Part shown: one piece after another, positions 23,926-39,415 of the stretch
Position numbering within the stretch: position 1 is the first letter of the stretch
How the letters are laid out: the number at the start of each line of letters is the position of its first letter
From: Verrucomicrobiota bacterium
GTDB taxonomy: Bacteria > Verrucomicrobiota > Verrucomicrobiia > Verrucomicrobiales > DEV007
NCBI GenBank assembly: GCA_024277195.1
Contig: JAJRVS010000027.1
Location: 1-44,291 of the forward strand
DNA: 44,291 bases
Direction: 5' to 3'
Notes under the pieces: model-generated
Database searches by the model: none
What the model was told of the DNA's origin: nothing
The model's input: the letters and a program-made list of their open reading frames with translations, nothing else
Translations under genes and position numbers: made by a program

Positions 23926-24639
23926 ATGAAAAGCAAATTACTTACTATCGCTCTCATCCTGCTTAGCATGGCCGGTGCGCAAGCCCAAAATGATAATGGC
24001 TCTAAAAAATGGACCAACCTTTTTGACGGCAAAACCTTGAACGGCTGGAAACAACGCGGAGGAAAAGCCAAATACACTGTGGAAGATGGCGTCATCGTCG
24101 GCACCACTGTGCCGAACACACCTAACTCATTTCTCTCCACAGAAAAAAACTACGCGAACTTCATCCTCGAAGTCGATTTTAAAGTCGATCCGTCGATGAA
24201 CTCTGGCATTCAAATCCGCAGCAATGAATTCAAAGAAGGTGATCAACAGCCCGTCGAAGGGAAAAAAATACCTGCTGGCAGAGTTTATGGTTACCAAGTG
24301 GAGATTGACCCGTCCGAACGTGCCTGGTCGGGTGGTATCTACGATGAAAGCCGACGCGGATGGTTGAACAATCTCGAAAAAAATCCTGCTGCTCGCAAAG
24401 CTTTCAAGCAAAATGAATGGAACCACTACCGAATCGAAGCGATCGGCGGACGCATCCGGACTTGGGTCAACGGTGTCCCCGCTGCAGACCTCAAAGACAA
24501 CATGACGGCATCGGGATTTATCGCACTGCAAGTACATGGCATCGGTAATAAAAAGGGTACTTGGCAAGTAAAATGGCGTAATATTCGTATTCAAGAGAAC
24601 CCCAAAGCCCCCACAAAAAATAAAGCTGCTAAAAAATAA
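23926..24639 (+). CDS. Secreted DUF1080 (3-keto-disaccharide hydrolase family) protein
   Basis: A 237-residue secreted protein. Residues 1-20 are a signal peptide ([18 protein letters not shown]). The rest is a concanavalin-like beta sandwich of the DUF1080 family: [70 protein letters not shown] and [19 protein letters not shown]. The family is large in Verrucomicrobia and Planctomycetes and has been linked to hydrolysis of 3-keto sugars. It is a close tandem paralogue of the next gene's N-terminal half, with most of these motifs shared word for word. A short Lys/Pro tail ends the protein. Confidence 0.9.
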
Positions 24640-24672
24640 CTCTCAAATCGACTAACCCTAATCTACAACGAG

Positions 24673-26217
24673 ATGAAATTAAAACTTTTGATCACCACGC
24701 TGGTTTTGTCCGGCCTATTGAGCGCGCAAGCTCAGGAAAAAATCAGTGACGGTAAATGGGTCGATCTGTTCGACGGCAAAACGCTGAAGGGCTGGAAACC
24801 CGTAAGTGGAAAAGCTGTTTATACAGTAGAAGACGGCGCCATCGTCGGCACCACCGCTGCCAACACCTATGACAATGTGTTGGCTACAGAAAAAGAATAC
24901 GGCGACTTCATTCTCGAGCTGGATTTTAAAGTCCATTCCCTGCTGAACTCGGGCATCCAAATCCGCTGTCACAAATTCAACGAAGGCGATGAAAAACCAA
25001 AAAAGGGCAAAACCGCCCGCCCGGGACATGTTTATGGTTATTCGATAGAGATCGACCCCTCGGATCGCGCCTGGTCTGGCGGGTTTTATGAGGGAGGTCA
25101 CCGAGGCTGGTTGAAAGATCTGACCGACAACCCTGCCGCCCGTTTTGCTTTCAAGCAAAATCAATGGAACCATTTCCGCATCGAAGCGATCGGCGACCAC
25201 TTCCGCACCTGGATCAATGGCGTGCCAGCCATTGACGTCCATGACAGCGAAACGGCTACCGGTTTTATCGGCATCCAAGTCCACGGTCTTGGCAGCAAAC
25301 CGGAAAAACGACAAGTAAGAGTGCGCAACATCCGTATTCAAGAAAACCCTAGCCCCTCGCCGGCAGCCAAGACCTACGTGCCCAGCACCGGACCAATCGT
25401 TCCCGAAGGAACACAGGTCACAAAACTCGCCGATGGTTTTAAGTTCACTGAAGGCCCGGCTCAAGGACCCGATGGGCGGATTTATTTTTCCGACATTCCC
25501 AACGAACGCATCATGGTCTTCGATCCGGTCTCGAAAAAAACCACGGTTCATCGCGAAAATTCAGGCAAGGCCAATGGCCTGTGGTGGACACCCTCCGATG
25601 CCTTGCTCGCCTGCGAAGGCGGCAACCGCCAGCTGACCCGCACTGATGCTGAAGGGAATCTGGATGTATTGGCTGACAGCTTCGAAGGGAAGAAATTCAA
25701 CAGCCCCAACGATCTGGTGCAGGATCAAGTCGGCGGCATTTTTTTCAGCGACCCTCGTTATGGCAACCGCGATGACATGGAGATGGAAGTCGAGGGGGTA
25801 TATTATTACAACCGGCGCAAAAAAGTCACCCGCGTGATCGACGACCTCAAGCGCCCCAACGGCGTCTTGCTTTCACTCGATCACAAAACCCTCTATGTCG
25901 CCGATACCGAGCTGAAAAAAATATTCGCTTACCAAGTCACTGGCGAAGGAACTCTTGGCAAAAGCCGGGAGTTTGCCAACATCGGCAGCGATGGCCTGAC
26001 CCTCGACGAACGCGGCAATCTCTACGCCACCTGGAAAGGCAAAGTCTGGATCATTTCTCCAGAGGGCAAAGACCTGGCGCAAATCGATTGCCCAGAAGGA
26101 CCCGCCAACTGTTTCTTAGGCGGACCCAAAGGCAACACTCTTTACATCACCGCCCGCACGGGCTTTTACTCCATCGAGTTGAACGTAAAAGCCCCGGTGC
26201 CTTACCGGGGCGAGTGA
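24673..26217 (+). CDS. Secreted DUF1080 - SMP-30/gluconolactonase fusion
   Basis: A 514-residue two-domain secreted protein. After the signal peptide (to about residue 20, SAQA-QE), residues 25-230 are a DUF1080 domain nearly parallel to the upstream gene (LFDGKTLKGWKPVSGKAVY, NSGIQIRCHKFNEGD, IEIDPSDRAWSGGFYEGG). Residues 250-510 are a six-bladed SMP-30/gluconolactonase propeller: FTEGPAQGPDGRIYFSD (metal Glu), NSPNDLVQDQVGGIFFSD, RPNGVLLSLDHKTLYVAD and GSDGLTLDERGNLYAT (metal Asp). Joining a keto-sugar hydrolase-type domain to a lactonase-type domain suggests consecutive steps on one sugar. It follows the paralogue by 33 bases, so the two form a unit. Confidence 0.9.
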   Translation: MKLKLLITTLVLSGLLSAQAQEKISDGKWVDLFDGKTLKGWKPVSGKAVYTVEDGAIVGTTAANTYDNVLATEKEYGDFILELDFKVHSLLNSGIQIRCHKFNEGDEKPKKGKTARPGHVYGYSIEIDPSDRAWSGGFYEGGHRGWLKDLTDNPAARFAFKQNQWNHFRIEAIGDHFRTWINGVPAIDVHDSETATGFIGIQVHGLGSKPEKRQVRVRNIRIQENPSPSPAAKTYVPSTGPIVPEGTQVTKLADGFKFTEGPAQGPDGRIYFSDIPNERIMVFDPVSKKTTVHRENSGKANGLWWTPSDALLACEGGNRQLTRTDAEGNLDVLADSFEGKKFNSPNDLVQDQVGGIFFSDPRYGNRDDMEMEVEGVYYYNRRKKVTRVIDDLKRPNGVLLSLDHKTLYVADTELKKIFAYQVTGEGTLGKSREFANIGSDGLTLDERGNLYATWKGKVWIISPEGKDLAQIDCPEGPANCFLGGPKGNTLYITARTGFYSIELNVKAPVPYRGE

Positions 26218-26235: not shown

Positions 26236-26415
26236 TCAATAGTTACCTCTGAGAAACTTCGAGTTAGCGTCCTGCATCCTGGCAGCGTTATCAGCTTTAT
26301 TAGGTGCTGGATAATTAGGCATGCCATTTTCATCCTCAGGAGCCGAAACACATCCGGTAAAAGTCATCACCATCACCGGAGCCAACAAAATTGCGAGTAA
26401 AATAGAAATTTTCAT
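26236..26415 (-). CDS. Small lipoprotein, 59 residues (family shared with 39104-39283)
   Basis: An AAGGTGG ribosome site lies just before the ATG at 26415. The product has a lipoprotein signal peptide (MKISILLAILLAPVMVMTFT) and a GC lipobox, leaving a mature chain of about 38 residues: a short acidic/Pro linker and a basic C-terminus ARMQDANSKFLRGNY. The same size and a related ending (GIQEAQSKVIRRLSL) are found in a second small lipoprotein at 39104-39283. The function is unknown. It is convergent with the gluconolactonase fusion (18 bases apart) and divergent from the bat cluster. Confidence 0.72.
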   Translation of the reverse strand: MKISILLAILLAPVMVMTFTGCVSAPEDENGMPNYPAPNKADNAARMQDANSKFLRGNY

Positions 26416-26550
26416 AGCCACCTTCTATCGAATCACCCAGTCCAGATCAAGAGAATTCTGTAAATTCACACTCCCAGGCTTCTTTTCTTGTCATTTTTCA
26501 TGGCGGTCAGACGAATTTTCTCCGATACTCCGCTCTTTGTATAAACATTC

Positions 26551-27468
26551 ATGGCAAGACCTGCACCCATCAGCACTGAAGATCAGCAAGATATATCGGA
26601 AATTCTGCGTAAAATCCGCAAGATCGAGCTGAAGACGCGTGGCTTGGTGCGTGAAAGCGTCGGCGGTGAATACCACAGTTGCTTCAAGGGTGAAGGCATC
26701 GACTTCGAAGACTTCCGCGAATACCAGCACGGCGACGAAGTGCGTTCGATCGACTGGAATGTGACCGCCCGCATGGGAACACCTTATATCAAAAAATTCA
26801 CCGAACAGCGTGAATTAAGCGTGCTGCTGGCAGTGGATATCAGTGCCTCCGGCAATTACGGCAGTCACGAACAAAGCAAACGGGAACTGATCGCCGAGGT
26901 TTCTGCGCTGCTGGCCTTCAGTGCTTTGCAAAACAAGGATAAAGTCGGCCTGATCCTTTTTACTGATCATATTGAAAAATACGTGCCGCCGCAGAAGGGC
27001 AGCTCGCACACCCTACGCCTGATCCGGGAAATTCTTTTCTGCCGCCCCACCCGCCAACAAACCCAATTGGAGGACACGGTTCACATTTTGAGAAATCACA
27101 TCAAACGCCGCTCGCTGGTTTTTCTGATCTCGGATTTTCTCTTTGCAGACAACCAACTCGACGAATTAAAAAGCCTCGGCCGTCAACACGACCTGGTGGC
27201 CATCCAAGTGAGTGACCCCGCAGAAAAAAAACTGCCTGCCGTTGGTCCGGTCAGATTGGAAGATCCGGAAACCGGCGAACAAATAGAACTCAACACCTCG
27301 AACCCCCGGGTTCAGCAAGCTTACCAACAGCAAGCCGAAAAATGGCAGGAACAAGTAAACGCCCATTTCCGCAAATTGGGCATCGACAAAATCGACCTGG
27401 TCACCGACCAGGAATACCTGCCCGCCCTGCACTCCTTTTTCAAACGTCGCGGAGGCATGGGAAATTAA
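26551..27468 (+). CDS. DUF58 domain protein of a Bat-type cluster
   Basis: A 305-residue cytoplasmic protein, first gene of a five- to six-gene run. The DUF58 signature is GIDFEDFREYQHGDEVRSID with WNVTARMGTPYIKKF. A von Willebrand A-like fold follows with the metal-site motif AVDISAS near residue 92, and the C-terminus HSFFKRRGG is usual for the family. Such proteins normally sit between a MoxR AAA+ ATPase and the Bat membrane proteins and are thought to link the ATPase to its clients. No moxR gene is next to this one: upstream lies the small lipoprotein on the other strand. TATAAA at 26540-26545 is too close to the ATG to be sure of as a promoter element. Confidence 0.92.
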   Translation: MARPAPISTEDQQDISEILRKIRKIELKTRGLVRESVGGEYHSCFKGEGIDFEDFREYQHGDEVRSIDWNVTARMGTPYIKKFTEQRELSVLLAVDISASGNYGSHEQSKRELIAEVSALLAFSALQNKDKVGLILFTDHIEKYVPPQKGSSHTLRLIREILFCRPTRQQTQLEDTVHILRNHIKRRSLVFLISDFLFADNQLDELKSLGRQHDLVAIQVSDPAEKKLPAVGPVRLEDPETGEQIELNTSNPRVQQAYQQQAEKWQEQVNAHFRKLGIDKIDLVTDQEYLPALHSFFKRRGGMGN

Positions 27469-27524
27469 TCCATCTGTCTGAAAAAAACTAAATTCAAAAT
27501 CTGATTCCGAAACCTGTTACCTTG

Positions 27525-28091
27525 ATGATCTCCGCCCTTGTAGCACAAATAGCACCCAGCCAAACTGATGCCGCAGAGCTACCTGATATTCAGGATATCA
27601 TCTCGCCGCAGGCTTCGCTCAGCTACGGGCTACTCATCGCCATCGTGCTGGTGGGACTGCTATTACTTGCCGTTGTGATCTTCCTGCTCGTTTATTTCAT
27701 CAGCAAAGACAAAAAACGTAGCCACCAAATCCCGGCCGGACGAATTGCTTTGAGAAAACTGGATGAACTGGAAACCCTGGCACCTGAACTCAGCGCAAAT
27801 GCTTTCAGCCTACAGGTTTCTGACATTTTAAAAGACTACCTAAAAGAACGCTTCCAGGATTCGTTCCGCTACGAAACTTCTGAAGAATTCATCAAACGCC
27901 TGAGCAGCGGAACTTCCCGCAGCCTGCCGCAAAGCTTGCAAACAGACCTAGCAAACTTTGCCGCACTTTGCGACCAGTTGAAATTCGCCCGCTTTGCCAA
28001 TGCCGAAGACCACAAACTGCCGCTGCTCGAAGAAGCGCGCCGAATCATTCGAGAACCTATAAACATCCATGCCACACCTCCTGTTAGCTGA
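27525..28091 (+). CDS. Single-TM protein of the Bat cluster (DUF4381-like)
   Basis: A 188-residue protein with one strong transmembrane helix near residues 33-58 (GLLIAIVLVGLLLLAVVIFL) between a short N-terminal segment containing DIQDIISPQ and a helical cytoplasmic domain (ALRKLDELETLAPE, then ILKDYLKERF and ETSEEFIKRL). The position between DUF58 and BatA and this layout resemble the DUF4381 proteins of MoxR-linked operons. A TTG precedes the ATG, and the ATG at 27525 is preferred. Its last 23 bases overlap the start of batA, so the two are translationally coupled. Confidence 0.82.
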   Translation: MISALVAQIAPSQTDAAELPDIQDIISPQASLSYGLLIAIVLVGLLLLAVVIFLLVYFISKDKKRSHQIPAGRIALRKLDELETLAPELSANAFSLQVSDILKDYLKERFQDSFRYETSEEFIKRLSSGTSRSLPQSLQTDLANFAALCDQLKFARFANAEDHKLPLLEEARRIIREPINIHATPPVS

Positions 28092-29082
28092 TATCAGTTG
28101 GCGTTTTGTCCATCCCTGGGCACTGCTGCTGCTGTTGTTCATCCCCGTACTCGCGGTGATGAAGGGACGGCGCGGTCAACAGGCGACCGTGGTATTTTCC
28201 TCGCTGCACATCCTGCGTCAACTGGGCCCCATGACCCGCTCCCGGGCAGGCGCGGTTCGTCTCGCCCTGATCTATCTCAGCATTGCCCTGCTGATACTCG
28301 CTCTAGCACGACCACAAAAAGTGCGCTCCACCGAGAGAACCAGCGAGAGCGGCATCGAGTTGCTCATCGCCATCGATGTCTCCCGCTCGATGCAGGTCAC
28401 CGACTTTACCCTCGGTGGACGCAAGGCGACCCGCCTGCAAGCAGCGAAAAAAGTCACCCGAGACTTCATTCGTGGACGCGAAACTGATCGCATCGGAGTG
28501 ATCGCGTTCGCCGGTCGCCCCTATCTGGTCGCGCCGATCACCTTGGATCATGAGTGGATCGAAGACAGCCTCGAACGCGTACGCATCGGCCTGGTAGAGG
28601 ACGGTACCGCCATTGGCTCTGCCATCGGTGCCACTGCCCGACGGCTGGAAAAACGTCCGGCTAAAAGCAAAGTGGTGGTATTGATCACCGACGGCGTGAA
28701 CAACGCCGGCAGCCTCACCCCAATCACTGCGGCAAAACTGGCCAAAACTCTCGGCATCAAAATCTACACCATCGCCGTTGGCACCTACGGCAACTACACC
28801 GTGCAGACCCCGGTCGGCCCACAGCATTTGCAGCAGGAATTCGACGAAGAAACACTCAAGGAAATCGCCCGCATCGCCGACGGTGAATACTTTCGGGCAC
28901 AGGACACCTCCAGCCTCGAGCGCATTTTCGGCTTGATCGACAAACTGGAAAAAACGGAAGTCAAAAAACACGTCACGCTTCATGCCAAGGAGTATTTTTT
29001 CTGGTTTGCTATCGCTTCCCTGGCTTTTGCTTTATTATCTTTGATTGGGGGAGAAACCTTTTGGCGACGCTTACCTGAATGA
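28069..29082 (+). CDS. batA: BatA: membrane-anchored vWA protein
   Basis: A 337-residue inner-membrane protein. Two N-terminal transmembrane segments (about 17-31 and 63-80, ending ALARPQKV) lead into a von Willebrand A domain with the metal-ion site AIDVSRSMQVTD (Asp103, Ser105, Ser107) and a later TDGVNNAG. A third transmembrane helix lies near the C-terminus (FWFAIASLAFALLSLIGG). The Bat (Bacteroides aerotolerance) system is found near MoxR/DUF58 genes and is implicated in envelope stress or oxidative tolerance; the biochemical role is unsettled. The start overlaps the upstream gene by 23 bases, and the stop overlaps batB-batC by 4 bases (ATGA). Confidence 0.93.
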   Translation: MPHLLLADISWRFVHPWALLLLLFIPVLAVMKGRRGQQATVVFSSLHILRQLGPMTRSRAGAVRLALIYLSIALLILALARPQKVRSTERTSESGIELLIAIDVSRSMQVTDFTLGGRKATRLQAAKKVTRDFIRGRETDRIGVIAFAGRPYLVAPITLDHEWIEDSLERVRIGLVEDGTAIGSAIGATARRLEKRPAKSKVVVLITDGVNNAGSLTPITAAKLAKTLGIKIYTIAVGTYGNYTVQTPVGPQHLQQEFDEETLKEIARIADGEYFRAQDTSSLERIFGLIDKLEKTEVKKHVTLHAKEYFFWFAIASLAFALLSLIGGETFWRRLPE

Positions 29083-31346
29083 TGCCCACTTTTGCCGAAC
29101 CAGTTTATTTTTGGATGCTGCTTGCGTTGATACCGCTGCTGCTATTGCGGCTACGTGCGCACCGACTCAGTCGCAAAGGCACCCCCGGACTGATCGCCAA
29201 CCGACTGCGTAACGAACTGGTCATCGGCGCCAATCCCTGGTTGCGTTGGTTGGCCTTCCTCCTCCATTGCCTGGCGCTGACCTTCATCACCCTTGCCCTG
29301 ACCCGCCCGCAATGGGGGCACGAAGAAATGCCCACCGAATCTGAAGGGCGCAACATCATCATCGCCATCGACACCTCGCGCAGCATGCTCGCGACTGATC
29401 TGCTGCCGGATCGCCTCACCCGCGCCCGCTTGGCGGCGCAGGACCTGGTGGACTCTTTACCCAATGATCGCATCGGCCTGATTGCCTTTGCCGGTCGTGC
29501 TTTTCTGCAAGCTCCCCTGACCATGGACCACATGGCCATCGTCGAAACGCTCAATCAGATTGATACGGAAGTCATCCCCCGTGGTGGAACCAACATCAAC
29601 TCCGCAGTCGCGATGGCGATCGAAACCTTCCGCAAAATCGATAGCAAAGACAATGCGCTGATCATTTTTAGCGATGGCGAAGATCTGGAAGGCGGAGAGC
29701 AGTTGGCCCAAATAGGCGAGGACGCAGAAGAACTTGGCATGGTCGTCATCGCCATCGGCGTAGGCACCCAAGCGGGCTCGATCATCCCTGATCCTAGCGC
29801 GACCAGCCCTGGAACTTTTATTAAAAATGACAACGGGGACATTGTTCGCAGTCGCCTCGACCCCGCCGCCCTACAACAGTTGAGCGCACGTACTTCACGG
29901 GGAATTTATCTCAATCTGGGCTCTGCCAGCTCGATCGCCGACATCGTCGGCAAAGCGCTAAGCCAGATCAAAACCTCTCGCCATGAAGACGCAGCGAAAA
30001 AACGTCCTATCGAGCGCTTCCTCTGGCCGCTCTCCTTCGCTTTGTTCTTTATGATCGCAGGTTTCATCCTCCCCATTTCCATCCGCCAGCAGCACCGCCG
30101 CACGACGGTTGCCACCCCTTCTCCGAGCAGTAAACCCAAACCATCCGCCACTCCGCCACCGCTGCCCGTCGTCGGTAAAACCGTCGCCCTGCTTTTATTT
30201 GCAGGATATTTTACCCTTTCCCCACCATCACTACAAGCGGAAGAATCCGATACCAAAAGCACCGCTCTGCCCGCCCTCGAATCCTACCAAAACGAAGACT
30301 ACCAAACAGCAGTCAAAAGCTACCAGCAAGAAATCGAGGAAGAAAAATCTCCGAAAAAAGAATCCCAACTCCACTTCGGCTTAGGGTCAGCCGCCTACCG
30401 AAGCGGTGATCTAGAACTCGCCGAGCAAGCTTTTGGCAAGGTGCTCGAACGTGCTAATAATAAAAAACTTAATTCCGATGCGCACTACAATCTGGGCAAT
30501 ACGCTATTCCGTCACGGCCAAACTTTGCTCAAACCAACAGCCGTAAATGACCAGCAAAGCAACAACGCTGCTGCCCCAGGCCAGCCTGACATGAAAGGAG
30601 CCACCCGCCAATGGCAAGCCGCCATCGAACACTACCAGGCAGCCCTGAAAACCAATCCCAAGCACGTCCCTGCCAATGAAAACTTAAAACTCGTGCAGAA
30701 CTACCTGAAACTTTTGCAAAAAAAACAGCAGGAACAAGAACAGAAAAAGGAGCAGCAAGAGAAAAAAGACGAAGAGAAGGACAAAGAAGAGGATAAAGAC
30801 AAAGAAGAAAATAAGGATAAGGGAGAAAAAGACGAGCAGGACAAAGACCAAGGCAAAGATCAAAAACCTGATCCCAATGGTTCTAAAAATCCCGATGGAA
30901 AACAGCCGCCTCCCAAAGATCAGGACAAAAACAGTGACGGCAAGCCCGGCGATAACAAAGATCAAAAATCCCCTCCACCCTCTGATCCAAAAAATCCGGA
31001 TGGGGAGAAAAAACCTTCTGACCCATCTAAAGACAAACAAGACGGCAAGCCGGATGACAAACAAGAGGGCAAACAAAAACCTAGTGAAAAACAACCTCCG
31101 CAACAACCCGGTCAGGCTGAGCCCAAGCAAAAAGACCCCGAAGGAAATTTAAAAGCCAATCCGAGCCAGCAACAACCCGCCCAAGCTGCCGATGCTCGCA
31201 AGGGCAAGGAAGACCAAAAGCGCAACCCGGAAACCGGCTTCTCCCCGCTAGAGGCACGCCGCTTACTGCAAAGCCTTTCGGACGAAGACCTCAGCATCAA
31301 ACCCCTGATGCGACCTGCCCCCGCCCAACCTTACAAAAACTGGTGA
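29079..31346 (+). CDS. batB: BatB-BatC fusion: vWA protein with TPR and charged tail
   Basis: A single 755-residue polypeptide. Residues 1-345 equal BatB: two N-terminal TM helices (10-24 and 58-74), a vWA domain with AIDTSRSMLAT (Asp98, Ser100, Ser102) and FSDGEDLEGG, then a TM helix at 315-334. A Pro/Ser linker leads to GKTVALLLFAGYFTLSPPSL (366-385) plus QA-EES, a signal-peptide-like segment that would be the start of a separate BatC. Residues 395-545 have at least three TPR-like units (SQLHFGLGSAAYRSGDLELA, SDAHYNLGNTLFRHG, QWQAAIEHYQAALKTNPKHV). Residues 548-720 are low-complexity Lys/Glu/Asp/Gln/Pro, and the C-terminus PLEARRLLQSLSDEDL resembles BatC ends. ATGATG begins the gene inside the batA stop. 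Confidence 0.9.
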   Translation: MMPTFAEPVYFWMLLALIPLLLLRLRAHRLSRKGTPGLIANRLRNELVIGANPWLRWLAFLLHCLALTFITLALTRPQWGHEEMPTESEGRNIIIAIDTSRSMLATDLLPDRLTRARLAAQDLVDSLPNDRIGLIAFAGRAFLQAPLTMDHMAIVETLNQIDTEVIPRGGTNINSAVAMAIETFRKIDSKDNALIIFSDGEDLEGGEQLAQIGEDAEELGMVVIAIGVGTQAGSIIPDPSATSPGTFIKNDNGDIVRSRLDPAALQQLSARTSRGIYLNLGSASSIADIVGKALSQIKTSRHEDAAKKRPIERFLWPLSFALFFMIAGFILPISIRQQHRRTTVATPSPSSKPKPSATPPPLPVVGKTVALLLFAGYFTLSPPSLQAEESDTKSTALPALESYQNEDYQTAVKSYQQEIEEEKSPKKESQLHFGLGSAAYRSGDLELAEQAFGKVLERANNKKLNSDAHYNLGNTLFRHGQTLLKPTAVNDQQSNNAAAPGQPDMKGATRQWQAAIEHYQAALKTNPKHVPANENLKLVQNYLKLLQKKQQEQEQKKEQQEKKDEEKDKEEDKDKEENKDKGEKDEQDKDQGKDQKPDPNGSKNPDGKQPPPKDQDKNSDGKPGDNKDQKSPPPSDPKNPDGEKKPSDPSKDKQDGKPDDKQEGKQKPSEKQPPQQPGQAEPKQKDPEGNLKANPSQQQPAQAADARKGKEDQKRNPETGFSPLEARRLLQSLSDEDLSIKPLMRPAPAQPYKNW

Positions 31347-31357
31347 GAACCTTAGTT

Positions 31358-33175
31358 ATGACATCTCCTTTCTCATTTTTTACTTTTAAAATCCTACTCG
31401 GAAATAGACTCCCCATCAGTGCTGCGATCATCGCCGCACTGACTATCTGCTTATTTCCCTTCACCACCTGGTCACAGCAGGCCGGCCGGGAAACCAAAAT
31501 AACCAGCCTGTTGCACAGCCGTAAAATTGCCATCGGTGAAACCGGAGTTTTTGCCATTCAAGTCGACAATGGCACCCTAGATGAAGCTCCTCGAGTGATC
31601 AAGGCCCCTGGGCTCGACATCATTTTTCAGGGTCAAAACTCCAGTCTGAGAATTCTCAATGGAGTCAGTAGTAATCAAACACTCTACTACTACGTGGTCA
31701 GTGGTCAGAGCGCCGGCAATTTCACCATCCCGGCACTCAGCTTGAACGTCCGGGGCAAAATCTATACCACCAAACCTGCCAGTTTGGTGGTCTTCAAACG
31801 CAAAGCAGGCGATCTGAGTTTGGACGCGTCCAAACCCTACTTCCTCCGGCTCACCGCTCCTAAAACCGCACTTTACGTCAACCAGATCGTGCCACTGGAG
31901 CTGACTGCCTTTGTCCGCGGTCAAGGCAGCATTTATGAAATTGGAGCCCCCGACTTGAAGAACGAAAACATGATCATCAAACCCTTCCAGCGTAATGTCG
32001 CTCAAGGCAATCTGATGATCGATGCCTACGAGTATTCCACCGCAAAAATCCAAGGCTCCATTTTTCCCATCCAGCCCGGTCAACAAGTTCTGCAATCCGC
32101 CAATCTGCGCTGCCGTTTCATCGACCGAAGCACCCGGGTGGGAGGTGGCCTACGCAGCCTATTCACCCAGACCATCACCCGCACCCTGCAAAGCAACTCA
32201 CTCACCTTCGATGTCAAACCCTTGCCATCAGAAGGCAAACCCACCAGCTTCTCGGGTGCGGTGGGAAATTTTAATATGGAAGTCAAAGCCTCACCGCTCA
32301 AGCTGCAGGCCGGCGATCCTATTTCCATCGACATCACCGTCGAAGGGATCGGCAACTTTGACCGCCTCGCCGCACCCACCTTCCTCAGCCAGGACCCGAA
32401 GAAATGGCGCACTTACGAAGCACGGAAAACCATCGACCCCAATGAGAAATCCGACGGGGTAGTGCCAGGCAAAAGCACCTTCACCCAGATCATCATCCCT
32501 TTAGGTGAAAGCAATGAACTGCCGCCTTTTGAAATCAGCTTTTTCGATCCTGAAACAGAAAAGTATGTCACCCGTCGCTCGTTGCCCATCCCACTGGAAA
32601 TCGCCCCCGACATACGCCCCTCCAACTCCGGGGCAACGCTCTCTGCAGGCGGCCATTCATCCGGCACGGGCTCCGTCACCGCTCCACCCAGTCCTAACTT
32701 TGACGACATTCTCTACATCCGCAAAAACAAACCGCACAACCGCAGCATCCAGGCCTCCCTGCAGCACCGTCCGGCTTTCTGGTTTGCCCAAGTCGTCCCG
32801 CTACTTCTGCTTGGCTGGATTTTAACAATTGCCCTGCTTCGTTTTGCCAAACTAAAAGGACTAGGTGCCAAAAACACCCAAACAAAAATCGATTACCATC
32901 AAGTGAGAAGCGGGGTAGACGCCTCAGCCTCTGCTCGTGCCGATTATTACAAAAAAATCGAGGAATGCCTCAACGCCTGGCAACAACAAAACAAGCAGCC
33001 ACTCGACTCCCAACCCGATACTCTCAAGGCTGGTTTCAACGCTCTGAATTCCCGCTGCCAGTGGATCCTATACGGAGCACCAGAAAGCGACCGCCATGCG
33101 CCTCCTACTGAACAGGAAACCACCGAGGCCAGACAAATCCTCGACGGCCTTTCCCAAAATCTGACATCCGCTTGA
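31358..33175 (+). CDS. batD: BatD: oxygen-tolerance type membrane protein
   Basis: A roughly 605-residue protein. An N-terminal hydrophobic signal or anchor (AAIIAALTICLFPFTTWS, ending near Gln-Gln) precedes a long beta-rich periplasmic region of repeated immunoglobulin-like folds (IAIGETGVFAIQVDNGTL, QTLYYYVVSGQSAGNFTIP, FSGAVGNFNMEVKASPLKLQ). One transmembrane helix near the C-terminus (WFAQVVPLLLLGWILTIALL) leads to a short cytoplasmic helical tail. This is the BatD/oxygen-tolerance family layout. A GTG at 31343 overlaps the stop of the preceding gene; the ATG at 31358 is also usable. The spacing implies cotranscription with batB-batC and batE. Confidence 0.88.
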   Translation: MTSPFSFFTFKILLGNRLPISAAIIAALTICLFPFTTWSQQAGRETKITSLLHSRKIAIGETGVFAIQVDNGTLDEAPRVIKAPGLDIIFQGQNSSLRILNGVSSNQTLYYYVVSGQSAGNFTIPALSLNVRGKIYTTKPASLVVFKRKAGDLSLDASKPYFLRLTAPKTALYVNQIVPLELTAFVRGQGSIYEIGAPDLKNENMIIKPFQRNVAQGNLMIDAYEYSTAKIQGSIFPIQPGQQVLQSANLRCRFIDRSTRVGGGLRSLFTQTITRTLQSNSLTFDVKPLPSEGKPTSFSGAVGNFNMEVKASPLKLQAGDPISIDITVEGIGNFDRLAAPTFLSQDPKKWRTYEARKTIDPNEKSDGVVPGKSTFTQIIIPLGESNELPPFEISFFDPETEKYVTRRSLPIPLEIAPDIRPSNSGATLSAGGHSSGTGSVTAPPSPNFDDILYIRKNKPHNRSIQASLQHRPAFWFAQVVPLLLLGWILTIALLRFAKLKGLGAKNTQTKIDYHQVRSGVDASASARADYYKKIEECLNAWQQQNKQPLDSQPDTLKAGFNALNSRCQWILYGAPESDRHAPPTEQETTEARQILDGLSQNLTSA

Positions 33176-33188
33176 TCCCTTTCAGCCA

Positions 33189-34001
33189 ATGCCTTTTCTA
33201 AATACCAACTTTATCCAATGGGCCAGCATCTGCCTGCTACTGGCTTTGCTCGTGCCTGCACTTCAAGCAGCAGATTCCCCCGCAGAGGCTTATCAAAAAG
33301 GTAATGAACTCTACGAAGAGGGCAAATACGATCAATCTGCTCGCTTGTATCAAAAAAGCTTCCAACAGGGACATCTTTCTGAAGAACTTTTTTACAATCT
33401 CGGCAACACCTTTTTCAAACAGGAAAACTATGGAGAGGCCGCTTTATGGTACCGCCGCGCGCTCATTCTCAATCCGCGCATGCCGGAGCCTCGTCAAAAT
33501 TTGCGCACCCTGAAAAACCGGGTCGGTTTACTCGACTTTGAACCCAAGGGAGTCAACCAGTTCATTTCCCACTTCCGTGAAAGCGAACTCACTTCGCTGC
33601 TCACCATTTGCACCTGGCTGGCTGTGCTCAGTCTTGCCACCGCGCTGTTCGTCAAACGTCTGCGTCCTTGGCGCGCCCTGCTTATTACCGCCTGTTGCCT
33701 CTTTATCGGCCTGACCTTTACCGCTATATTAGCACTGCGAACCTATCGCAAACATATCACGGTTGATCATCGTGCCGTGATCACTGCCGCCGACGCTATT
33801 GCACAAACAAGCCCGGTGCCAGATGCCAAAACCGTGATAGAACTGCCCCCTGGCAGCGAAGTGCGCATCGTTACGGATAGCGGTCCCTGGCAATACATCG
33901 ACATCCCGGGTGAATTGCGCGGGTGGGTCAAAACTGAAAACCTTGCCCCACTCTGGCCTCCCACTCCGGCGGACCAAAAGCCACCGGCTCAGAATCCATG
34001 A
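33189..34001 (+). CDS. batE: BatE: TPR and SH3b membrane protein
   Basis: A 270-residue protein. A signal/anchor helix (SICLLLALLVPALQA) is followed by two TPR units (DSPAEAYQKGNELYEEGKYD, EELFYNLGNTFFKQENYGEA, WYRRALILNPRMPEPRQNL). A pair of transmembrane helices lies at about 135-183 (LLTICTWLAVLSLATALFV, LLITACCLFIGLTFTAIL). The C-terminal 65 residues are an SH3b-like domain (VIELPPGSEVRIVTDSGPW, then GWVKTENLAPLWP), which in exported proteins often binds peptides or cell wall. It starts 13 bases after batD and is the last Bat gene; the convergent ceramidase-like gene ends 37 bases later. Confidence 0.87.
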   Translation: MPFLNTNFIQWASICLLLALLVPALQAADSPAEAYQKGNELYEEGKYDQSARLYQKSFQQGHLSEELFYNLGNTFFKQENYGEAALWYRRALILNPRMPEPRQNLRTLKNRVGLLDFEPKGVNQFISHFRESELTSLLTICTWLAVLSLATALFVKRLRPWRALLITACCLFIGLTFTAILALRTYRKHITVDHRAVITAADAIAQTSPVPDAKTVIELPPGSEVRIVTDSGPWQYIDIPGELRGWVKTENLAPLWPPTPADQKPPAQNP

Positions 34002-34038
34002 CTGCGGTCGGTCAACAAGCCAGACAAACCAATTCGGC

Positions 34039-35451
34039 TCATCGCAGCAATGACAGCGTCGCTTCGACGATCTTATCCTCGACGTCCAATGACAGGCGGC
34101 TTGCTTTTGCAAAAGAATCCATCGATTGATCGACCTCATACCCGCCTTCGGAAATCATCTTTTTCGTCGCGATGTAACAAGGGTCGTCATTGGAATAAGC
34201 ATTGACCCACAACGCTCGCCTGCCCGACTCCCGCTTCAAACGCAAAGAGTAACCCGCAACAACTTCGCCCGCCAAAAACACCATCGAAAGATCCTCTCCG
34301 AAGTTCCACACCTGTATAGGATAAGAAAAAGCAGTAGGTGTGACCTCTCCGCGGTCCAAACGGTCCAACATCACCTGAGCAAAATACGCAGCATTCGCCC
34401 CTTGTTTGAGCCGTTGTTGCAACTCATCACGCCCCGGCACATGATCCACCGACAAGTCAATCCGCTTGATCCTGCAATCAGGTTTTGATTTGAGCACCTT
34501 CATCCCTCCCCTCAACAGGCGCTCCACTTCACTCGCTACCGCTTGGCCATGTCGGTTCACCACATCAAATCCAGCTGCCACCCCCCGGGGCTTTGGATTG
34601 GCGTCTCCGCCACAGCCCAAAGCCACCATTGCGATGCAATCAGGATGTTTATCTTCAAGTATTTGCGCTGCAGCCCCGGCCCAATCCCCATGAATTTTAT
34701 TAAATTTCGAGCCATAGGTGGTTCCGTGACAAGCATAACTCAGAAACAGGGATCGCAGCTCCCCCTCAGCACCCAATACTCTCAACACAGGCAAAGCATG
34801 ATCGACTACTCCTTTTTCATTGGGTCGCATCCCTACCCATTTCCCATCTTTCACCATTCTCCGGTTAGTGGCAAAACCCACTGATCCTTCACCCCAGGCA
34901 AGTTGTGAAGGCTGACGATTATCAAGCGCATCCAAAACAAGCTGCTCCAACAAGTCCAACAGGTGATCCGTGTATTGCTTGATCCGGGCTTTTTGTGGGG
35001 CAGGGATATTACTTCCGAAATACGAATCCACCAACATACTGCTCAAGGCCGGGCCGCTATGTGTATGCGTCACGCACACCGCTAGTTGCGAACGTTCCAG
35101 TCCCACCTTTTTTTTCAATCGAGCCGCCAAGGACTCAACCAATACTCCTGGGGCACGGATCAACTCTGCAGTGATCAGTACACTTGGCTTTTGATTATCA
35201 CTGCCTATGACCAGGGCTTTGGCCCAGATTTTACTCGCAACCCCCTGCGATGGCTCACGGCGATTGGCATAGCCCGCCAAACGGATAGCTCCATGCGGAG
35301 TGATATCCACCTTCGCCACCCCCACCGAAAATAAATCTCTCTGTTCCGCTGAAACGCCGCTCACACACAAAAGCACCGCCCCCATTATAATCATGGATAC
35401 AGGAATCAGCTGCGACTTGCAGATCAATGACAAACAATTGGATTTTTTCAT
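34039..35451 (-). CDS. Secreted neutral-ceramidase-like hydrolase
   Basis: A 470-residue secreted enzyme. The signal peptide ends near residue 35 (MIIMGAVLLCVSGVSA-EQ). The N-terminal domain of the neutral/alkaline non-lysosomal ceramidase family is seen: VGVAKVDITPHGAIRLAGYA, VLITAELIRAPG, the zinc motif CVTHTHSGPALS (His129 and His131) and SYACHGTTYGS (a further zinc histidine). Glycines at VALGCGGDANPKPRG are typical. Canonical ceramidases are about 650 residues or more with a C-terminal immunoglobulin-like domain; this one lacks that part, as do many verrucomicrobial and planctomycete relatives whose substrates are untested. Residues 430-470 carry conserved SNDDPCYIATKK. Confidence 0.85.
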   Translation of the reverse strand: MKKSNCLSLICKSQLIPVSMIIMGAVLLCVSGVSAEQRDLFSVGVAKVDITPHGAIRLAGYANRREPSQGVASKIWAKALVIGSDNQKPSVLITAELIRAPGVLVESLAARLKKKVGLERSQLAVCVTHTHSGPALSSMLVDSYFGSNIPAPQKARIKQYTDHLLDLLEQLVLDALDNRQPSQLAWGEGSVGFATNRRMVKDGKWVGMRPNEKGVVDHALPVLRVLGAEGELRSLFLSYACHGTTYGSKFNKIHGDWAGAAAQILEDKHPDCIAMVALGCGGDANPKPRGVAAGFDVVNRHGQAVASEVERLLRGGMKVLKSKPDCRIKRIDLSVDHVPGRDELQQRLKQGANAAYFAQVMLDRLDRGEVTPTAFSYPIQVWNFGEDLSMVFLAGEVVAGYSLRLKRESGRRALWVNAYSNDDPCYIATKKMISEGGYEVDQSMDSFAKASRLSLDVEDKIVEATLSLLR

Positions 35452-35485
35452 ACAGGAACCAAGATCGCCTTATTTCAAAAAACAC

Positions 35486-36157
35486 TCAAGCGTGGTTTTT
35501 AGAACTTTTTGATTTTTTCTTGGATGAACTGATTTTCTTCTTGGATGAACTGCTTTTCTTCTTGGATGATGAGCTGCTCTTCTTTTTAGATGAACTGTTT
35601 TTTTTATGCGAGGATGAACCGGATTTATAAGTCTTCCCGTGTTCATCCTTCAAGGTGAAATCTTTCACCTTGTACCCCCGTCCTTTATACCAATCCAATG
35701 TATGGTATTTTTTGGGATGCCCCCTGCCCACATTCCTGCCTGTCAGCTTGTATTTTTCATCATGGCTTGAGTGTTTTTTGCTCGAAGATGATTTTTTATT
35801 ATAATCGTAATCTCGATCATCATGACGATCATCATGACGATCTCGATAGGCGTAACGGTTATAACCAAAATAGTTCCCTCCACCATAATGATTAGAATAC
35901 CTCGTCCCACCTCTATATCCAGAGCCGTATCCAGGAGAATGACCCGAACCATATCTTCGTCCACCATCATACCATGGCTCAGCCGAATGATGGGATCCCT
36001 GCCCGATATCACCTCCCCCATATCCGTAACCCGCCATTCCGTAAGGGGCACAAGACGGTAAAAAAAACAACGCACTTACCGCAACGCAGGCTCCCAGTAA
36101 CCCTACGCTATTTATCCCCCTATTTGGATTTCCTTTGTTTCGTAATTTTGGCATCAT
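35486..36157 (-). CDS. Gly/Tyr-rich lipoprotein with Ser/Lys repeat tail
   Basis: A 223-residue protein, with the ATG pair at 36157/36154 preferred to the TTG at 36190. A lipobox (VAVSALFFLPSC-AP) makes it an envelope lipoprotein. Residues 35-110 are Gly/Tyr/Arg/His-rich (YGMAGYGYGGGDIGQG, then NHYGGGNYFGYNRYAYRDRH). A small possibly folded core follows (KYKLTGRNVGRGHPKKY, then WYKGRGYKVKDFTLKDEHG). The last 45 residues are runs of Ser and Lys (SSSKKK units), encoded by a minisatellite. The very basic tail might bind nucleic acid, wall polymers or LPS; no family is recognised. It is divergent from the gene at 36304. Confidence 0.72.
   Translation of the reverse strand: MMPKLRNKGNPNRGINSVGLLGACVAVSALFFLPSCAPYGMAGYGYGGGDIGQGSHHSAEPWYDGGRRYGSGHSPGYGSGYRGGTRYSNHYGGGNYFGYNRYAYRDRHDDRHDDRDYDYNKKSSSSKKHSSHDEKYKLTGRNVGRGHPKKYHTLDWYKGRGYKVKDFTLKDEHGKTYKSGSSSHKKNSSSKKKSSSSSKKKSSSSKKKISSSKKKSKSSKNHA
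35513..35597. repeat. Minisatellite of about 21 bp encoding SSSKKK units
   Basis: The unit TTCTTGGATGAACTG, flanked by T/C-rich triplets, occurs four to five times with single-base changes and one 3-base insertion. It encodes the Ser/Lys tail of the lipoprotein, in frame, so unit gain or loss would change tail length without breaking the gene. Confidence 0.75.
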
Positions 36158-36303
36158 TACTATAGACGGGATAAAATCTCTCTTATTCAATTTTAAAATT
36201 CACCCCAGCCCTACTTTCTCCATAAAAAATAGCCCCATTATCCCTCCTTGCATTCACCCTGCATATCTGATACCCCTCATCACGGATAATCCCCCCACCT
36301 AAT

Positions 36304-37467
36304 ATGAAAACTTTCAGCCTATTTCGCCACTGCGCCCATATCACACTCTCTCTCGCTTTTATTTTCACCACTATTTCCCTGCACGCCGCTGACTCCGCCT
36401 CACGCTTCTTAAAAGACGCGCAAAAAGGAGATCTCGACCTTAGCTCCATTGGGCGTTTGGCCTTTGGCCCGGACGGACTGCTACTGTTATCCGACCCGCG
36501 GTCTGCTTCCATCCTTGCCATTGATACAGGAGACACCGGCCCTTTGGTCAAACTGGAGAAAAAAATCAAAAACATTGATTCCGTCCTCGCCAAAGAACTC
36601 AAAGTCGAAACCGATGCCCTCAGCATCATCGACATGGCTGTCAATCCCGCCAGCGGGCGTATTTATTTCAGCCTGAATGTCAAACCTGGCAACCAGGCCA
36701 TTCTCATCGCCGTCGATGGCAAAGGAGAGATCCATCGCCCTGAACTGACAAAGATGGAATACGTCCGCATGACCCTGCCCGTAGGAGACAAAGGCAAGTT
36801 GCGCAATGTCACCGATCTGGCTTGGGCAGATTCCAGCGTGGTGGTTGCCGGGCAGTCCAATGAAGAATTTGCCAATAAAATCTACCAAATCCCCGTCCCT
36901 CTCGAAAATGGGGTCAACGCCCGGTATTTTTCAGCCGAAACTTACCACGTTTCCCACAAGCGCTGGGAAACCAAAGCCCCAATCCAATCTTTCATTCCCT
37001 ACGAAGAAAATGGAAAGTTCTATATTGTCGGCGCTTTTGCCTGCACCCCGATTGCAAAATTTCCGCTCAGTGGAATCGAATCCGGGGACAAAATCAAAGG
37101 CATCAGCATTGTTGAATTAGGTGGTGGCAATCGTCCACGCGATATGTTCACTTACAAAAAAGATGGTAAAGAATGGCTAGTCACCAATACCAAACGTTTC
37201 CATAAAAAATTCGGCCCTAGTCTTTACTGGGGAGCCCGGGTGGACATGAAATATCTGTCTGCTGACAAAGCGGAAGACACCAACGAAAACGCGCCGCGCC
37301 GCAATGTGAAGAAAACCAGCGGCCCGGACGCCAAAGGCATCGAAGTCATCGATGAACTTTACGGAGCAGTCCTGGTCAGCCAATTGGAAAACGAGCAGGT
37401 CATCGTCTTACGCGAAATCGAAGAAAACAGCACGAACCATAACCTCGAACCTGTCACTCTTCCCTGA
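36304..37467 (+). CDS. Secreted propeller-like protein of unknown function
   Basis: A 387-residue protein with a signal peptide (CAHITLSLAFIFTTISLHA-AD). The start of the mature part looks like a beta-propeller blade: IGRLAFGPDGLLLLSDPRSA, then ILAIDTGDTG; further blades are IIDMAVNPASGRIYFSLNVK and VTDLAWADSSVVVAGQSNEE. A single short C-terminal region KGIEVIDELYGAVLVSQLEN ends the fold. No catalytic motif or heme motif is seen. The downstream Ig-like lipoprotein begins 67 bases later on the same strand, so they probably form a pair. The divergent gene is the Ser/Lys lipoprotein. Confidence 0.7.
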   Translation: MKTFSLFRHCAHITLSLAFIFTTISLHAADSASRFLKDAQKGDLDLSSIGRLAFGPDGLLLLSDPRSASILAIDTGDTGPLVKLEKKIKNIDSVLAKELKVETDALSIIDMAVNPASGRIYFSLNVKPGNQAILIAVDGKGEIHRPELTKMEYVRMTLPVGDKGKLRNVTDLAWADSSVVVAGQSNEEFANKIYQIPVPLENGVNARYFSAETYHVSHKRWETKAPIQSFIPYEENGKFYIVGAFACTPIAKFPLSGIESGDKIKGISIVELGGGNRPRDMFTYKKDGKEWLVTNTKRFHKKFGPSLYWGARVDMKYLSADKAEDTNENAPRRNVKKTSGPDAKGIEVIDELYGAVLVSQLENEQVIVLREIEENSTNHNLEPVTLP

Positions 37468-37534
37468 GCTCCGCTCACGCCCATTCCTTCGCTCTTTAGC
37501 TACACTCCACACCAATGCCCACACGAGTCACCCC

Positions 37535-38377
37535 ATGATTTCACACGGCGTACACTCCACCGCATTAGTCGCTGTTTGCCTACTGTTGCTAAGCGCTTGC
37601 GAAGAAAGCCACAAGCCCATTCGACCAAATAGCCCTTCCGAGCAAAAACAAACGACTGCAGCTGATAACATCCGCATCCATCCGTCTGTTGATGTATTGC
37701 CCGCCAATCATCTGAAATTCTACATTGAATTCCCCGCCGCCATGGCCAGGGGTGATATCTTCCAGTATTTTTCTTTAATTGAGAACGAGTCGGGAGATGC
37801 CGTGCCTGACCCCTTCCGCGAAATAGAGCTGTGGGACGAAAGCGCACGCCAGCTCACTCTCTGGTTCCATCCCGGCCGTCAGAAACCCGGCGTGAATCTG
37901 AATATCGACATCGGCCCGATTCTGGAAGAAGGAAAAAACTACACCCTGATTCTTTCAGGAAAATGGCAAAGAGAAACTGGTCAAATTATTGGCAAAGATG
38001 TAAAAAAATCATTCCGCGCCGGTCCAGTGGACAACACCCAACCTGATCCTCAAAAATGGCAATACTCCATTCCGGCGGCAGGCAGCAGCACTGCTTTGAG
38101 TATCACTTTCCCCGCCCCGCTCGACTACGCCCTCATCCCTCGCACCATCCAAATCAGCTCCAACCATAATTCAAAAATTGGATCATCCCACGACGGACAA
38201 TCCATCCAATTCATTCCCGCCTCTCCTTGGAAAGCAGGGCAAATCAAAATAACCATCTCCCCGATCCTCGAAGACCTCGCCGGCAACAGCATCGCCCGCC
38301 CCTTCAACCTCGACCTGCAAACAACTCCCGAACTCCCAAAACCCTCCAAAACCATGCGCAGCTTCACGATCAAATAA
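37535..38377 (+). CDS. Lipoprotein with Ig-like (Big_5-type) domains
   Basis: The frame begins inside the upstream gene at 37352, but the ATG at 37535 starts a lipoprotein signal (STALVAVCLLLLSAC-EE), giving 280 residues. The mature chain contains two beta-rich domains with the PVDVxPxxHxxxxxxxFxxAM-like pattern of SbsA/Big_5 Ig-like proteins: VLPANHLKFYIEFPAAMARG, then LNIDIGPILEEGKNYTLILS, and IKITISPILEDLAGNSIARP. The repeated GPILEEG/SPILEDL motif marks the two units. It is probably anchored in the outer or inner membrane and acts with the product of the preceding gene. No enzymatic motif is seen. Confidence 0.75.
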   Translation: MISHGVHSTALVAVCLLLLSACEESHKPIRPNSPSEQKQTTAADNIRIHPSVDVLPANHLKFYIEFPAAMARGDIFQYFSLIENESGDAVPDPFREIELWDESARQLTLWFHPGRQKPGVNLNIDIGPILEEGKNYTLILSGKWQRETGQIIGKDVKKSFRAGPVDNTQPDPQKWQYSIPAAGSSTALSITFPAPLDYALIPRTIQISSNHNSKIGSSHDGQSIQFIPASPWKAGQIKITISPILEDLAGNSIARPFNLDLQTTPELPKPSKTMRSFTIK

Positions 38378-38409
38378 ATGATCCATCAAAATGACCGAAT
38401 GCTAAATTG

Positions 38410-38991
38410 CTAGTCTCCCACTCCGGTAAACTCCTCATCAGGAATCAAACCCAGCCCCATCAGCACGCTGTCGTGAGCTCCTCCTTTCATGTCCAATACA
38501 TAGTTCTCTATCCGGCACAGCTCATCAAAACCCGCATCTCGAAAGGCCTCTATCAATTCTGCAGGCGCGCCCATCAATTCCGACTCCAAGCGCATCAACC
38601 CCGCATGCTGGCCCAGGCCGACCAGACTGCGAACCAAAAGACGCATCAGTCCATGCCCACTGTATTCAGATTTCACCATCATATTTACAGAACCAATATG
38701 ACGCTTCCAGCCCCCCTGGCGTTGATGCAATATGCCCAAAGCCACTATTTTTTTGCCCTCTAGTGCCAACAACGGCAAGTTACAGTCATAATCAACACTG
38801 CGGCACCAGTCCATGAATATGTCCGAACTCGAACACGGCCCCTTGATAAAAAGCCGCTCTTCCGGCTGCAGCGCCAGCATGAAATCACATAACGCTTTTT
38901 CATCGTCCTCTCGCAAAGGACGCACCGTATACATCAACTCATCCGGCAGCTCAACTTGCTGCGGATACTCCTCCAACGCAAAATCCAACAT
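38410..38991 (-). CDS. GNAT family N-acetyltransferase
   Basis: A 193-residue GNAT-like protein. YTVRPLREDDEKALCDFMLA opens the fold, KKIVALGILHQR is the strand 4 region, and MMVKSEYSGHGLMRLLVRSL carries the acetyl-CoA loop (SGHGL, in place of the common Q/RxxGxG/A). A further C-terminal helix and strand (AFRDAGFDELCRIENYVLD) match the family. A C-terminal acidic segment (GLIPDEEF) is added. The acceptor is not predictable. Convergent with the Ig-like lipoprotein gene (32 bases between stops). The 112 bases upstream hold only the weak hairpin CTAGT/ACTAG. Confidence 0.83.
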   Translation of the reverse strand: MLDFALEEYPQQVELPDELMYTVRPLREDDEKALCDFMLALQPEERLFIKGPCSSSDIFMDWCRSVDYDCNLPLLALEGKKIVALGILHQRQGGWKRHIGSVNMMVKSEYSGHGLMRLLVRSLVGLGQHAGLMRLESELMGAPAELIEAFRDAGFDELCRIENYVLDMKGGAHDSVLMGLGLIPDEEFTGVGD

Positions 38992-39103
38992 AATCCCTCC
39001 TCCTTTCTAGTTTTGAGACTAGTCAAAAAGTCGGGGCAATAGCAAGATAAAAATTATCAAATATGAGAATTTTGCCAAATCCGAGAGCGGGCGGTCGGTA
39101 AAA

Positions 39104-39283
39104 TCAGAGTGACAAACGGCGAATCACCTTGCTCTGAGCCTCCTGGATCCCCAATCGACTGCTACCTGGAGTAGGCTGCGGCGTGATCCCCTGTGAAGTG
39201 CCCGAATCCGCATCCGATGCGCAACTCATCAAAAAAACAGCTCCAAATACAGCCAAACTCAATCGCAAAATACCCTTTTTCAT
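39104..39283 (-). CDS. Small lipoprotein, 59 residues (family shared with 26236-26415)
   Basis: Translated directly from the minus strand: ATG at 39283, TGA at 39104-39106. MKKGILRLSLAVFGAVFLMS precedes the lipid cysteine, then a Ser/Thr/Pro-rich linker (QGITPQPTPGSS) and the C-terminus RLGIQEAQSKVIRRLSL. GTGGGGTC just upstream of the ATG can serve as a ribosome site. It has the same length as the lipoprotein at 26236-26415 and the same ending pattern, [IM]-Q-[DE]-A-[NQ]-S-K-x-[LI]-R. The function is unknown. Confidence 0.7.
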   Translation of the reverse strand: MKKGILRLSLAVFGAVFLMSCASDADSGTSQGITPQPTPGSSRLGIQEAQSKVIRRLSL

Positions 39284-39415
39284 GACCCCACTTTTATCAC
39301 AAGCTTAGGCCGAGGAAAAGCCTTTTTATCAACGCCTGATTTTATTCAACAAAACCCGCCCTCGTCTTGTCATAAATAGTAGCCAAATGGCTGTTGCTGT
39401 TCACCTGTTGTCAAA

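Follow-up and report, generated by a model that had tools for sequence, protein, structure and literature searches.

The window, that is, the whole stretch of 44,291 nucleotides that was analysed, carries two tiny lipoprotein genes, P0001 (gene 1) and P0002 (gene 2), whose features are listed in Table 1. P0001 is translated from the minus strand as MKISILLAILLAPVMVMTFTGCVSAPEDENGMPNYPAPNKADNAARMQDANSKFLRGNY, with its stop at 26236, and P0002, from the same strand, as MKKGILRLSLAVFGAVFLMSCASDADSGTSQGITPQPTPGSSRLGIQEAQSKVIRRLSL, with its stop at 39104. An earlier note on this DNA had described both reading frames as 59 residues plus a stop, with lipoboxes at the same position to within one residue, and the translations agree on each count, the putative lipobox cysteine being residue 22 in one protein and residue 21 in the other. 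The decapeptide that it had seen shared between their ends is likewise present, but it is not the end of either protein: GNY follows it in P0001 and RLSL in P0002, leaving it 3-4 residues before the C-terminus. The spacing from the cysteine to this motif is 25 residues in both. The second gene had been singled out as short; short it is, but so, equally, is the first.

Table 1. Positions of the two genes, their motifs and the adjoining features in the window
Feature	Position	Strand	Basis
Tiny lipoprotein gene 1 (P0001, A-type), 59 aa	26236..26415	-	Translation; orthologues in G001, G002, g10, g12, g16
Putative lipobox FTGC of P0001, Cys = residue 22	26350..26361	-	Sequence
C-terminal motif MQDANSKFLR of P0001, residues 47-56, inside predicted helix 40-57	26248..26277	-	Alignment, AlphaFold2
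Intrinsic-terminator-like hairpin 3' of P0001, at junction with convergent gene	26191..26211	-	1 found, 0.5 expected
Convergent neighbour of P0001: 3-keto-disaccharide hydrolase + SGL fusion protein	24673..26217	+	Pfam
Tiny lipoprotein gene 2 (P0002, B2-type), 59 aa	39104..39283	-	Translation, G001 orthologue, codon-position bias
Putative lipobox LMSC of P0002, Cys = residue 21	39221..39232	-	Sequence
C-terminal motif IQEAQSKVIR of P0002, residues 46-55	39119..39148	-	31-member alignment

A single-sequence search places orthologues of P0001 in two further genomes of genus g1, at 68 and 64% identity, and P0002 has an orthologue in one genome of its genus, G001, at 84% identity and with the same neighbours. 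Between P0001 and its G001 counterpart the three codon positions differ at 12/9/29 sites (dN 0.21, dS 1.8, dN/dS about 0.11), and the comparison with G002 gives 17/9/31. For P0002 and G001 the figures are 10/6/32, with a dN of 0.13 and a saturated dS. Because these differences are concentrated at third codon positions, P0001 and P0002 are real coding genes under purifying selection. An AGGTGG stretch precedes the start codon of P0001, and past its stop lies a strong hairpin with a short T-run; inspection of the flanks of P0002 revealed no clear ribosome site and no terminator.

A separate observation concerns the upstream regions. Several members of the family described below carry a box resembling TATAAA, TATAGA or GATAAA about 6-14 bases before the ATG, often without a Shine-Dalgarno site, and this spacing resembles that of leaderless transcripts. 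Such boxes lie within 26416-26440 and 39284-39310 in the window and upstream of the A-type genes at loci L090, L092, L094 and L100.

An undescribed family within one Verrucomicrobiales family

Relatives were sought with single sequences in 57 genomes and with iterated profiles in 75 genomes of the bacterial family and 387 genomes of the order; in the large runs the best 20 or so candidates per genome were scored, and very divergent members may be missed. The proteins behind the single-sequence matches share the build of P0001 and P0002, and two places in G029 were matched by both queries. Single sequences followed by profiles gave about 36 members in 25 of the 75 genomes and 6 of the 18 genera of the bacterial family (g1, g2, g10, g12, g13 and g16). 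Genomes with the family hold one to four copies at unrelated loci: two in G000, both of them in the window, and two to four in the g12 genomes. The family is missing from many g2 genomes and from whole genera, which means that it has no place in the essential envelope machinery.

Beyond this bacterial family, profile searches found nothing convincing in the order's sister families (about 310 genomes), and matches at chance level only in a phylum-wide set of 388 genomes. The candidates from G295 (f2; E 0.003-0.01 over this set of roughly 310 genomes), G539 and G490 all lie at chance level and were not counted. The G295 candidate, a 121-aa frame at locus L140, is a longer sister-family lipoprotein that starts CATTGDPTAGGIFWSPTKAQARQQALIQEG and continues into a long coiled coil; it is a possible longer relative, its match being at chance level. 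A scan of GTDB contigs with MQEx[ML][SGT][QDR][VML]TR, a pattern drawn from the D/B alignment, returned 23 stretches, five of which encode a relative, each matching a genome already found. Neither the single proteins nor the 31 aligned members match a Pfam, NCBIfam or PDB family at cut-off, and the weak Pfam and NCBIfam matches are scattered, each to one member. The family is thus undescribed and limited to one Verrucomicrobiales family. The earlier note's proposal of an unnamed family of tiny lipoproteins is upheld, and the further members that it called for in related genomes exist, across six genera; it had pointed to Verrucomicrobia genomes for the search, and the family is narrower than that group.

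The C-terminal motif is the constant part of these proteins. In an alignment of 31 members (A5), which leaves aside the E-type, it reads hydrophobic-Q-[EDQN]-x-x-[SGTN]-x-hydrophobic-x-R and usually stands 3-6 residues before the C-terminus. The glutamine is present in 31 of 31 members and the arginine, eight residues further on, in 30; the position before the glutamine is hydrophobic in 29 of 31, the position after it is E, D, Q or N in all, and position +4 is S, G, N or T in 28. This is sharper than the pattern first proposed, [IM]-Q-[DE]-A-[NQ]-S-K-x-[LI]-R, of which the Q and R are family-wide but the A-[NQ]-S-K core is not. The motif is kept in all orthologues of P0001, found independently by synteny in four genera, as the earlier note's reading requires. 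The lipobox cysteine occurs in all 31 aligned members, about 18-31 residues from the start, and the variable linker that follows usually bears an aromatic-x-x-Pro element before the motif. Pairwise identity averages 37% in the tail, 22% in the linker and 25% in the signal peptide. Whole proteins measure 53-73 aa and their mature parts 34-51 residues.

The members fall into subtypes, lettered A-F in this analysis. The A-type, that of P0001, has the tail IQExHSxxLR, and the B2-type consists of P0002 and its G001 orthologue (IQEAQSKVIRRLSL). B- and B3-types carry MQExMSxVTRxLxPF (MQEAQSRVMRSMIPF), the C-type DPDTKRLExQEGMTxVTRELSENY, the D-type YPTPAEKNxxMQExMSxxTRSF and the F-type YYxPxPxSxxxRxxxxQxxxGxIxRSxIR; the E-type, GQDRLWEVHSRTxRELxY, has W in place of Q. 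The tails nearest to that of P0002 outside its genus are IQEAQSRVMR (G014) and MQEAQSRVMR (G035). A PDZ-type ligand acting through a terminal hydrophobic residue was considered, F, Y or L being the last residue of many members, and rejected because most F-types end in R.

Kinship between P0001 and P0002 is remote. Aligned directly by BLASTP, the two are 24% identical over 51 residues (E = 3e-4, counting this one comparison), with a score owed partly to the signal peptide. A profile built from members outside genus g1 ranks P0001 and P0002 first and second of all six-frame reading frames in the window, with genome-scaled E values of 0.11 and 3.1 and the next-best frame at 34. Composition-preserving shuffles reached the score of P0001 in 1 of 5000 cases and that of P0002 in none of 5000, and that of the G001 orthologue of P0002 in 149 of 5000. 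With the lipobox cysteine removed, a profile of A-types alone gives P0002 5.0 bits, a score reached by 8 of 2000 shuffles, and scores its G001 orthologue no better than shuffles; a profile trained without B2 gives P0002 12.1 bits, reached by 0 of 2000. The tie of P0002 to the A-type on its own is thus weak, as it would be if the likeness were convergence or chance among short lipoproteins instead of homology. That reading is nevertheless quite improbable: the intermediate B members of G029 and G024 score 26.6 and 25.0 bits with the same A-only profile, against about 11 for the best shuffle, and P0002 takes second place in the window with a profile drawn from other genera. These B-member scores and held-out ranks support, at the level of sequence, a link between the two genes through intermediates. 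The best explanation is that the two window genes, though dispersed, belong to a single family that is confined to one lineage and inherited vertically.

Neighbourhoods of the subtypes

Each subtype keeps its own place in the genome. The A-type gene lies tail-to-tail with the 3-keto-disaccharide hydrolase/SGL gene in eight of nine genomes, from g1, g10, g12 and g16, with 7-50 bp between the stops where measured; in the ninth, G002, the two genes are on separate contigs. A search for hidden A-type copies next to the g2 orthologues of the SGL gene found none, the hydrolase/SGL gene standing without an adjoining small gene in most g2 genomes. The other flank of the A-type in g1 is a Bat-type operon (DUF58, VWA, BatD). 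In the window, a gene resembling neutral/alkaline ceramidases (34039-35451) adjoins the Bat-type operon, and two adjacent genes at 23926-26217 both have a 3-keto-disaccharide hydrolase domain, joined in the second to an SGL domain, a pair that likely arose by tandem duplication and fusion.

P0002 and a PSCyt2/PSD1 gene are divergently oriented, and DUF1501 comes after the latter. DUF1501 genes near P0002 and the G014 and G024 copies were considered as synteny and set aside, being 29-42% identical, differently oriented and part of a large paralogous family. B and B3 copies adjoin genes like acetolactate synthase and C copies a START-like protein, both named by sequence inspection only. The F1 copies (L205, L206, L210 and L211) lie, mostly tail-to-tail, near an ion-channel protein, an AcrB-type efflux pump and its adaptor. 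In g2, four D-type loci (L104, L105, L106 and L215) stand about 250-280 bp upstream of a hybrid HAMP histidine kinase of about 1040 aa, and three F2-type loci (L204, L207 and L213) the same distance upstream of a PAS histidine kinase of about 411 aa, all in the direction of the kinase. No neighbour is common to all subtypes, and since neighbours differ between them the family probably functions in trans.

A predicted tail helix and its possible role

AlphaFold2, run on a 31-row alignment, predicts two helices in P0001, one in the signal peptide (residues 3-18) and one in the tail (residues 40-57). Mean pLDDT is 76 and pTM 0.32; the tail helix, about 18 residues long and at a pLDDT of about 82, scores highest within the mature protein. 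Helix geometry worked out by hand places motif positions -1, 3, 6 and 7 on a hydrophobic side and Q0, E1, S4 and R8 on the opposite one. Amphipathicity alone is not striking, since the helical moment exceeds that of shuffles weakly (mean z 0.8, with 13% of members below p 0.05); the strand-type moment falls below shuffles (-0.7). That a polar face is conserved on a helix with a hydrophobic face as well points to specific docking and not to mere lying on a membrane, and the lack of a shared neighbour suggests that the partner is encoded elsewhere.

These features can be assembled into a model that stands an even chance of being correct, in which the family members are tethers or adaptors at the outer membrane that dock by their helix on the same partner in the periplasm. 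The lipobox cysteine would be lipidated and, if the sorting rules of E. coli apply, the mature protein would be anchored at the outer membrane. The lipid would be followed by a linker, flexible and variable, in most cases by an aromatic-x-x-Pro hinge, and then by one C-terminal helix, which would most likely dock, without a covalent bond, on a periplasmic partner shared by every member, making the protein a short tether or adaptor. The dispersed copies would presumably be expressed under different conditions.

Several other roles have to be weighed against docking on a shared partner. The tail might bind peptidoglycan and so join the outer membrane to the cell wall in the manner of Lpp, non-covalently for want of a C-terminal lysine. 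Size and architecture do resemble those of Braun's lipoprotein, the invariant arginine could contact a wall carboxylate, and a verrucomicrobial lipoprotein found in the peptidoglycan fraction, WP_009060351, has been suggested to be an analogue of Lpp (PMC10260701). A terminal lysine, however, is absent from all 31 aligned members, the helix is short, at about 18 residues, and the copies are dispersed and wanting in many relatives, so that a wall tether seems fairly unlikely. An accessory lipoprotein like LptM or VirB7, stabilising an outer-membrane or periplasmic complex, would have a precedent in LptM, a tiny lipoprotein that acts on the LptD/E translocon (PMC10567701), and the family too combines an aromatic-x-x-Pro element with a docking-type motif. 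The NCBIfam LptM model matches a single member, below threshold (E 0.071), and the neighbour stretches that were read, which covered part of the neighbours, showed no recognisable gene of the lpt, bam or type IV secretion kind; such a role is unlikely.

The g2 loci upstream of histidine kinases raise the idea of envelope-stress sensors that signal to these kinases, as RcsF or NlpE do. In its broader form, the members would be outer-membrane lipopeptide sensors that read the state of the envelope by their common helix, with the D- and F2-types still next to their kinases, on the upstream side, and the rest, the two window genes among them, acting on kinases whose genes lie elsewhere. Kinases are common genes, their proximity was noticed after the fact, and no kinase neighbour was recognised at the A-, B-, C- and E-type loci, both window genes included, which makes either form very improbable. 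Toxic lipopeptides of the entericidin or lysis type, or secreted peptides whose tail becomes active after cleavage, would be of similar length, and one of the 31 members weakly matches entericidin A (E 0.01) where the others show nothing. With weak matches touching one member each, neither an antitoxin partner nor a paired gene observed, and conserved polar Q, E and R residues that are atypical of membrane-lytic peptides, this possibility is extremely slight.

Comparison with known envelope lipoproteins

Gene callers and family databases readily overlook tiny lipoproteins, yet known examples such as Lpp and LptM keep the outer membrane intact or assist in assembling its machines. A lineage-restricted family with a clear one-helix signature offers a concrete bait, a peptide of about 20 residues, for envelope partners, and may show around what structures these little-studied bacteria organise their envelope.

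The nearest case by phylum is WP_009060351 of Methylacidiphilum, a protein of 139 aa with a phylum-specific C-terminal domain of 53 aa and a conserved C-terminal tyrosine and lysine; the domain is widely distributed in the phylum and is proposed to join the outer membrane and the wall (PMC10260701). It shares with the present family restriction to Verrucomicrobiota and a conserved C-terminal region and is set apart, by its description, by its size, its terminal lysine and its breadth. Lpp is likewise a tiny lipobox protein with a helix in its mature part, thought to be at the outer membrane; the family differs from it in the lysine, the length of the helix and the several dispersed copies, and no member matches the curated Lpp model at E 0.1. 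The conserved stretch of LptM (YifL) adjoins the cysteine. This LPS-translocon maturation lipoprotein resembles the family in being very short with a brief conserved stretch, which in the family stands at the C-terminus, away from any recognised lpt neighbour. VirB7-type proteins are short lipoproteins that dock a partner, as is proposed here, and differ by the secretion genes that were not recognised near the family and by the want of a Pfam or NCBIfam match at cut-off. As tiny envelope lipoproteins the family is kin in kind to Lpp and LptM and, having neither a C-terminal lysine nor a match to a curated model, a member of neither.
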